Origin: Mucilaginibacter sp. UR6-1
GTDB lineage: Bacteria; Bacteroidota; Bacteroidia; Sphingobacteriales; Sphingobacteriaceae
NCBI RefSeq assembly: GCF_020880975.1
Contig: NZ_JAJIWP010000003.1
Span: 310,001 to 374,000, forward strand
Direction of reading: 5' to 3'
DNA: 64,000 nt
Shown here: piece by piece, positions 59,434 to 60,722 of the stretch
Numbering within the stretch: the stretch's first letter is position 1
How the letters are laid out: every line of letters starts with the position of its first letter
Notes under the pieces: model-generated
Database searches by the model: none
Told to the model about the DNA's origin: nothing
What the model saw: the letters and a program-made list of their open reading frames with translations, nothing else
Program-made: the position numbers and the translations under genes

Positions 59434-60114
59434 ATGGAAACGTTAAAATTAAGAATAGCTAAGTTGAGTATTGCTGTAGCTACTGTAGGCATCATAGCAT
59501 CGGGTTGCGACTCGTTGACCAAAACACAAAAAGGTGCCGCTATAGGTGCCGGTGCCGGTGGTACTATAGGTGCATTTATAGGTAAAGCAGCCGGTAACAC
59601 CGCTTTAGGCGCTGTAATTGGTGGTGCTGTTGGTGGTACCGCGGGTGCTTTCATCGGCCGTAAAATGGACCGTCAGGCAGCCGAAATTAAACAAACTGTA
59701 CCTGGTGCAACCGTAACCCGCGAAGGTGAAGGTATCATTGTTAAGTTCGACTCGGGTATATTGTTCGATGTTGATAAAACCGACCTTAAATCAGCAGCCC
59801 GTACTAACCTTGAAAACTTAGCTACATCGCTAAAAAATAATCCGCAAACCAATATTTCTATTATTGGCCATACCGATAGCACCGGTACTGCAAGTTATAA
59901 CCAAACACTATCTGAACGCCGTGCAGCATCAGTAAAAAGCTATTTGGTTGATAATGGCGTTACCGGTTCACGTTTAAGCACTACAGGTAAAGGTAAGAAC
60001 GAACCGATTGCATCAAACGCAACTGCTGATGGCCGTGCGCAAAACCGCCGTGTAGAGATAGTAATTGTTGCTAATGATGCTATGAAACAAGAAGCTAAGC
60101 AAGCGAGCAACTAA
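59434..60114 (+). CDS. OmpA-family lipoprotein with glycine-zipper
   Basis: 226 residues. The leader ends IIASGC (Cys25), a lipobox, so it is anchored in the outer membrane. A glycine zipper follows (about 33-77: repeated AxGAGAGGTIGAFIG), then an OmpA C-terminal domain (about 100-215) with the peptidoglycan-binding residues in IIGHTDSTG and LSERRAASVKSYL...GSRLSTTGKGKNEPI. It resembles the YfiB/Pal-type proteins and probably ties the outer membrane to peptidoglycan. Transcription appears to be sigma-54-type, unlike its neighbours. Confidence 0.9.
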   Translation: METLKLRIAKLSIAVATVGIIASGCDSLTKTQKGAAIGAGAGGTIGAFIGKAAGNTALGAVIGGAVGGTAGAFIGRKMDRQAAEIKQTVPGATVTREGEGIIVKFDSGILFDVDKTDLKSAARTNLENLATSLKNNPQTNISIIGHTDSTGTASYNQTLSERRAASVKSYLVDNGVTGSRLSTTGKGKNEPIASNATADGRAQNRRVEIVIVANDAMKQEAKQASN

Positions 60115-60248: not shown

Positions 60249-60271
60249 TAAAAAAGCCCCGGGATGGGGCT
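60249..60271 (-). terminator. Terminator on the minus strand after the 27-aa ORF
   Basis: AGCCCC-ATCCC-GGGGCT (60271-60255, minus strand), then six T. It follows the stop of the 27-aa frame by about six bases. Confidence 0.8.
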
Positions 60272-60277
60272 ATAAAC

Positions 60278-60361
60278 TTAAAGTTTTTCAATCACCGCTT
60301 TTATCAGGCGGGTCTGTTGATATATTATCAACAGAGCTAAAGTAATCACCAATATTTCCAT
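60278..60361 (-). CDS. Candidate 27-aa membrane peptide
   Basis: ATG at 60361 to TAA at 60278. The peptide starts with a hydrophobic helix (MEILVITLALLIIY, about 1-14), then a basic amphipathic end (QQTRLIKAVIEKL). This is the make-up of a small membrane peptide or a type I toxin. It lies in a long gap, between an OmpA gene and pdeM, and the stop is directly followed by a strong terminator, which argues that transcripts really end here. No Shine-Dalgarno or clear promoter. A chance ORF of this length is also possible. Confidence 0.45.
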   Translation of the reverse strand: MEILVITLALLIIYQQTRLIKAVIEKL

Positions 60362-60445
60362 GGCTTACAGTCTGATTTTTATGCGTCGTTCTTGAATTGT
60401 TGAAAAAATAAATTAAATTGTGTAATTTAATTATTCCTTTTGATC

Positions 60446-60453
60446 TACATTTG
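60446..60453 (+). promoter_or_regulatory. -7 box of a possible plus-strand small RNA
   Basis: TACATTTG, a full match to TAnnTTTG. The nearest TTG (60418) gives a 25-base spacer, longer than usual. Confidence 0.35.
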
Positions 60454-60458
60454 TTTTA

Positions 60459-60533
60459 AATATTTATAAAGCGTAGTTCAACAAATAACTCGCAGTAAGA
60501 CCGATTGCTTCCAACAGTCGGTCTTACCTTTTA
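60459..60533 (+). ncRNA. Candidate small RNA
   Basis: If the box at 60446 is used, a transcript of about 75 bases would start near 60459 and end at the hairpin GTAAGACCGA (60495-60504) / TCGGTCTTAC (60518-60527) followed by CTTTT. There is no reading frame of note in it. It would lie antisense to any long leader of the minus-strand peptide gene. The evidence is only the box and hairpin. Confidence 0.3.
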
Positions 60534-60642
60534 TATCGCCTACCAGAATGATGTAAAGATACAAAGCGAAAGATTTCAGAGGTAATGATAGTTTTTAACA
60601 TCGGGGATAGCTTTTAAACATTCGTACATGTCTGTTTTTAAG

Positions 60643-60722
60643 TTAATTAGCTTATTTTCATAGTTTTAGTAGTGTTAATAAGTTAATTTATTACAGTAGT
60701 TATACTCTTATAAGCTAATTAA
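60643..60722. repeat. 13-base inverted repeat after pdeM
   Basis: TTAATTAGCTTAT (60643-60655) and its exact complement at 60710-60722, with a 54-base AT-rich centre. It lies just past the pdeM stop at 60725. Confidence 0.6.

Follow-up and report, generated by a model that had tools for sequence, protein, structure and literature searches.

A copy of the nrdB-type promoter upstream of a putative small membrane-peptide gene in Mucilaginibacter sp. UR6-1

Background

Between pdeM and ompA of Mucilaginibacter sp. UR6-1 lies a 27-codon open reading frame (ORF) that is followed by a terminator-like hairpin. Is this ORF a gene in its own right, and if so, what is it likely to do? The locus is part of a stretch of 64,000 nucleotides (contig NZ_JAJIWP010000003.1, positions 310,001 to 374,000; hereafter "the window"), in whose coordinates all positions are given. 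A preliminary description had proposed a real small gene for a membrane peptide with a strong terminator that fits this gene alone. Here we evaluate this proposal by means of the promoter, the leader and the related loci within the genome and the genus. The features of the region are listed in Table 1.

Results

Table 1. Features of the small ORF locus and its flanking genes (window coordinates)
Feature	Position	Strand	Remarks
OmpA-family protein with glycine zipper	59434-60114	plus	neighbouring gene
Intrinsic-terminator-like hairpin (60271-60255) and T-run	60249-60271	minus	may also terminate pdeM
27-codon ORF	60278-60361	minus	MEILVITLALLIIYQQTRLIKAVIEKL; one hydrophobic segment, basic C-terminus
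Perfect inverted repeat	60313-60335		10-bp arms, 3-nt loop; within the ORF; RNA hairpin
Small-mRNA leader, ~190 nt	60362-60550	minus	predicted from promoter and ORF positions
TACATTTG	60446-60453	plus	match to the -7 consensus TAnnTTTG; may serve as promoter for an antisense RNA (about 60460-60533)
Strong leader hairpin	60495-60527	plus	terminator-like on the antisense strand, then CTTTTAT; including flanks -25 kcal/mol (z -5.9)
Genus nrdB promoter copy	60554-60620	minus	TGTTTAAAAGCT / TGTTAAAAACTATCATTACC as direct repeats, followed by the -7 sequence TATCTTTA (60561-60554)
Calcineurin-like phosphoesterase, probably PdeM	61390-60725	minus	neighbouring gene

The minus-strand frame reads from ATG to TAA as had been described, and translates into 27 amino acids plus stop. 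Its predicted product is indeed hydrophobic and then basic, with a Kyte-Doolittle mean of 2.14 over the best 15 residues and with R18, K21 and K26 towards the C-terminus. As a predicted peptide it falls among the small (under ~60 aa) hydrophobic peptides typical of type I toxins, and its size and charge fit such toxins (compared with PMC8309996). The ORF on its own nevertheless says little and is near chance, because in dinucleotide shuffles of the 610-nt intergenic region an ATG ORF of 27 aa or more turns up in 77%, a TM-like ORF in 29%, and an equally hydrophobic one in 6.7%. TM-like ORFs ending at most 30 nt from a terminator are rarer (0.9% of the shuffles for the window), a frequency that refers to criteria picked after the window ORF had been seen.

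The hairpin AGCCCC-ATCCC-GGGGCT begins 6 nt past the stop and closes in a T-run, which agrees with the preliminary description; the hairpin region folds with -11.9 kcal/mol and a z of -1.8, which is moderate only. The claim that this terminator fits the small ORF alone could not be established. The gene pdeM shares this strand, and from its stop (60725) to 60271 no further minus-strand terminator was found, so that the hairpin, the only one found 3' of pdeM, could serve both. Directly past pdeM, at 60643-60722, we also observed a 13-bp perfect inverted repeat (TTAATTAGCTTAT / ATAAGCTAATTAA, 54 nt apart), which belongs to a 78-nt imperfect palindrome; a second copy of this palindrome was not found in the genome.

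The new observation is a copy of the nrdB promoter upstream of the small ORF, ~200 nt before its ATG. In a DNA search, window positions 60620-60567 recur at two further sites of the genome, and the 23-bp promoter core has exactly three full exact copies: at nrdB (identified by Pfam, with a cobalamin riboswitch in its leader), in the window and at C7:244.6k. This exactness was judged without any model. The two nearest relatives tested possess the exact 23-bp core once each, plus one site with three mismatches. The alignment across species results in the consensus TGTTnATAACT-N8/9-TGTTAAAAACTATCnnTAnC-N19/20-TATCTTTG; the promoter model matches 128 of 150 genomes, and strong matches sit upstream of nrdB in nearly all inspected genomes. 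The window copy displays the direct repeats and the -7 TATCTTTG in register that distinguish nrdB-type promoters, and gives E=5.8e-12 (R1) and E=4.1e-10 (R2), having itself been part of the training set. It is degraded in the first repeat and at the -7 end, and its spacer measures 19 nt, compared to the 20 nt usual for its promoter subtype. With 78% its identity to the nrdB promoter of its own genome is, like that of the C7 copy (74%), lower than for the second promoters of other genomes.

The first repeat corresponds to a DnaA box (TGTGGATAA) in some congeners and reads TGTGGATAAC in L187; the second repeat (TGTTAAAAACT) does not conform to a canonical DnaA box. Because the first repeat is a DnaA box in some species, and nrdAB of E. 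coli is under DnaA control (PMC8203912), we may reasonably infer DnaA or replication-linked control of the nrdB-type promoter. An independent transcript at the window locus is probable.

The parallel locus C7 provides insight into the layout of such a unit. At C7:244592 the promoter copy is followed by a leader of ~200 nt, the ORF MLAVTRKEAPQVEKFEVIAALLVAYKALAVLSNGKGKKDK (or a 29-aa version with GTG start) and a strong terminator. This locus was picked up by its promoter alone, with no ORF criterion, and the position of its ORF is consequently a fair test: a TM-like ATG ORF ends 14 nt before the terminator, with a shuffle frequency of 0.8%. The C7 unit is separate from the upstream lepB, as lepB has its own terminator. 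A paralogous origin of the window and C7 peptides is suggested. In a start-anchored alignment, with the GTG start in C7, they share E, A, L, L and Y (p=0.002, residue shuffling), and four of the five codons at these residues differ synonymously. BLASTP fails to pick up this likeness, and the two leaders show no significant resemblance (z<3). The proposed real small gene is accordingly retained in part: an autonomous small transcription unit is likely, as it has its own nrdB-type promoter and a layout repeated at C7, and what is not established is the exclusive terminator. Translation of the 27-aa peptide appears slightly more likely than not.

In the leaders of both the window and the C7 unit, a hairpin near the transcript start forms a terminator on the opposite strand. 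As counted on the sequences, TAnnTTTG, the -7 consensus of Bacteroidota (PMC7366714), precedes this antisense terminator by 41 nt in window and C7 alike, and the chance that both regions hold the motif is 2.6%. We saw no -33 TTTG at normal spacing before it, and no clear -33 box; a -33 box is likewise not identifiable in Flavobacterium johnsoniae (PMC7366714). In the ORF-less loci described below, TAnnTTTG is missing from the antisense strand save for a single match at the distal end of the G045 sequence. An antisense RNA in the leader may exist, with a likelihood that we place just short of even.

At the gathering level Rfam gave no match in the window; matches at the permissive level were far under the gathering scores and mostly situated over strong terminators, and the window leader holds no riboswitch. 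Among the related loci, the cobalamin riboswitch at nrdB alone passed the threshold. A leader match in G022 (L002) does not mark a locus of the same kind and was dismissed; it is a brief run of identity in front of a probable esterase.

The three genomes closest by PdeM identity (G083 with 97%, G152 with 93% and G108 with 92%) retain pdeM beside ompA, but the intervening DNA is unrelated and contains neither the ORF nor the hairpin. In G108 and G152 the syntenic gap likewise lacks the C7 unit. Searches of 150 congeneric genomes gave no convincing homologue for either the window or the C7 peptide, which does not indicate a conserved family. Pfam and NCBIfam returned no match to the window peptide up to E=10, and thus no assignment to the curated TisB family. 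Plasmid and phage searches found no homologue and PHROG no match, and an origin of the locus from known phages, plasmids or PHROG families was rejected. Weak peptide matches in other genomes (E 0.1-3) were set aside; they lie mostly within longer frames. The only relative found for the peptide is the weakly similar one at C7, within the same genome.

Second nrdB-type promoters are not confined to this genome. In eight others, such a promoter is followed by an ORF-less RNA. The RNAs of a first group (G045, G062, G115, G080 and G096; L128, L172, L174, L176 and L177) are ~150-170 nt long, with a 5' hairpin, a strong 3' terminator, no credible ORF and no match in Rfam; the RNA bodies of G062 and G080 are clearly homologous. 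A second family (L169, L211 and L212 in G064, G120 and G129) shares GAAGTCTGA...CAGAC and the arms CCAGG...CCTGG, and each of its members lies upstream of a different uncharacterised protein gene. Homology of the window transcript to these families was not detected (z<3 for every pair). The second promoters of G062, G115, G080, G045 and G064 share 85-97% identity with the nrdB promoter of their own genome and no more than 81% with promoters of other species. In at least two genomes (G115, G045) the likeness of the copies breaks off abruptly where the promoter ends. This pattern suggests recent copying or gene conversion of the second promoters.

The neighbourhoods of three second-promoter RNAs contain similar-looking proteins of ~160 aa without Pfam family (L214:3806-4294, L216:5826-6323, L218:4495-4953). 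L218 additionally possesses a tyrosine recombinase (integrase) and a BT4734-like/AAA_25 protein, and for this reason probably represents an integrative element. A retron or another reverse-transcriptase-linked non-coding RNA was considered for the second-promoter loci and rejected, as no reverse transcriptase was identified among the neighbours scanned.

Discussion

The explanation that we tentatively prefer, with less than even confidence, is a lineage-specific small membrane peptide that is co-regulated with nrd and probably resembles a type I toxin with a nested antisense RNA. The second copy of the nrdB-type promoter (about 60620-60554) would drive an mRNA of ~300 nt, composed of the ~190-nt leader, the ORF for the 27-aa membrane peptide and its own terminator. 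A short RNA from the opposite strand, driven by TACATTTG (60446) and terminated at the hairpin (60527), would base-pair with the leader and repress translation. Whenever nrd transcription rises under replication or dNTP stress, the mRNA might exceed the antisense RNA, and the freed peptide could insert into the inner membrane and slow down growth, as the SOS-induced TisB does. The sequence itself shows the promoter copy, the ORF, the terminators and the parallel C7 locus, from which translation, the antisense RNA and its pairing, stress induction and toxicity are inferred. A toxin function of the peptide, taken by itself, appears rather unlikely. Our likelihoods for transcript, translation, antisense RNA and toxin are rough and made by judgement. 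If the proposal holds true, a toxin-type peptide is wired to the control of ribonucleotide reductase and not to LexA, in a phylum from which few type I systems have been described.

The peptide reading is supported by the three exact core copies, the C7 layout, the similarity of the two peptides, the antisense terminators, the spacing of TAnnTTTG and the toxin-like size and charge. It is weakened by the lack of homologues, an ORF near chance, the negative BLASTP result, the degraded promoter, the ORF-less RNAs of the congeners and the post hoc criteria. The ORF-less RNAs lead to its strongest rival, in which the second nrdB-type promoter drives a structured non-coding RNA and the 27-codon ORF is incidental; this RNA would be expressed together with ribonucleotide reductase and function as a regulator or decoy. 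The second-promoter pattern, with its five RNAs of the first group and the second family in three more genomes, is the best argument for such an RNA; further points in its favour are the perfect 23-bp palindrome within the ORF and the folding of the ORF-plus-terminator stretch, which beats shuffles with z -2.5. However, the window and C7 transcripts are longer than the RNAs of the congeners and not homologous to them, and a membrane-type ORF abuts the terminator at both loci, with a chance of about 1% each; we consider the non-coding RNA a serious but doubtful alternative.

The absence of a further terminator behind pdeM instead recalls a chance ORF in the 3' region of this gene, in which case the hairpin would terminate pdeM transcription and the promoter copy would be a relic in decay. 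The frequency of ATG ORFs of such length in shuffles, the departures of the promoter copy from the consensus (-7 end, spacer), and the lack of the locus in the closest relatives all agree with this scenario. It is nevertheless improbable in our view, as the 23-bp core is preserved exactly and in full, and the gene in front of the parallel C7 unit carries a terminator of its own. A single-helix peptide under a shared promoter could also be a real small membrane protein other than a toxin, for instance one regulating a membrane enzyme co-expressed with nrdB, but the locus has no adjacent partner gene, the peptide has no family match, and the leader shows antisense signals of the kind typical for toxin control, which renders this option very improbable.

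Under the preferred peptide reading, the closest parallel is TisB/IstR-1 of E. coli, a type I toxin-antitoxin system with a 29-aa single-helix membrane peptide, a structured 5' leader, a stress-linked promoter and a short RNA that pairs with the leader (PMC8309996). The window unit likewise combines a predicted small single-helix membrane peptide with a structured leader, a putative stress-linked promoter and a candidate leader-pairing RNA. In contrast, no sequence homology to the window peptide was detected, the TisB promoter is of LexA type and the window promoter of nrd type, and IstR-1 acts in trans with limited complementarity, whereas the candidate antisense RNA of the window unit lies nested within its leader. 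We therefore favour a unit that may work like TisB/IstR-1 and is not a member of the TisB family. In the same phylum, seven putative cis-antisense type I pairs are known from Bacteroides thetaiotaomicron (PMC7366714), which similarly combine a small ORF with an antisense RNA (a candidate in our case); those pairs are divergent genes, each with a candidate sORF and backed by RNA-seq, whereas the window locus has another layout and is known from its sequence.

The window promoter shares its tandem repeats and TATCTTTG with the Mucilaginibacter nrdB promoters that precede cobalamin riboswitch leaders, but drives a small ORF instead of nrdB, through a riboswitch-free leader. Tandem repeats upstream of nrd also recall the DnaA-controlled nrdAB promoter of E. 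coli, with a first repeat that is a DnaA box in some congeners; in Mucilaginibacter, however, DnaA binding is suggested by the motif only, and the second repeat is non-canonical.

The second-promoter pattern in other genomes supports regarding the window locus as one instance of nrdB-promoter capture. Small genes of Mucilaginibacter may repeatedly own a private copy of their host's nrdB promoter, kept similar to it by recent copying or gene conversion, which would couple them to dNTP supply throughout the genus; we regard this as nearly as probable as not. Such a genus-wide reading, with the same reserve, would cover the membrane peptides of the present genome, the structured RNAs of other species and at least one case in an integrative element, and would imply that small RNAs controlled by copied nrdB promoters occur throughout the genus. 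As a separate observation, a weaker nrdB-type promoter in G022 (L178, G022:C1:853130) is followed by a 42-aa ORF, MSVVRKVGRDSGNGQFVPIKETVKHPRTTEVEKIKYPSPKKK, and then by a terminator-like hairpin.
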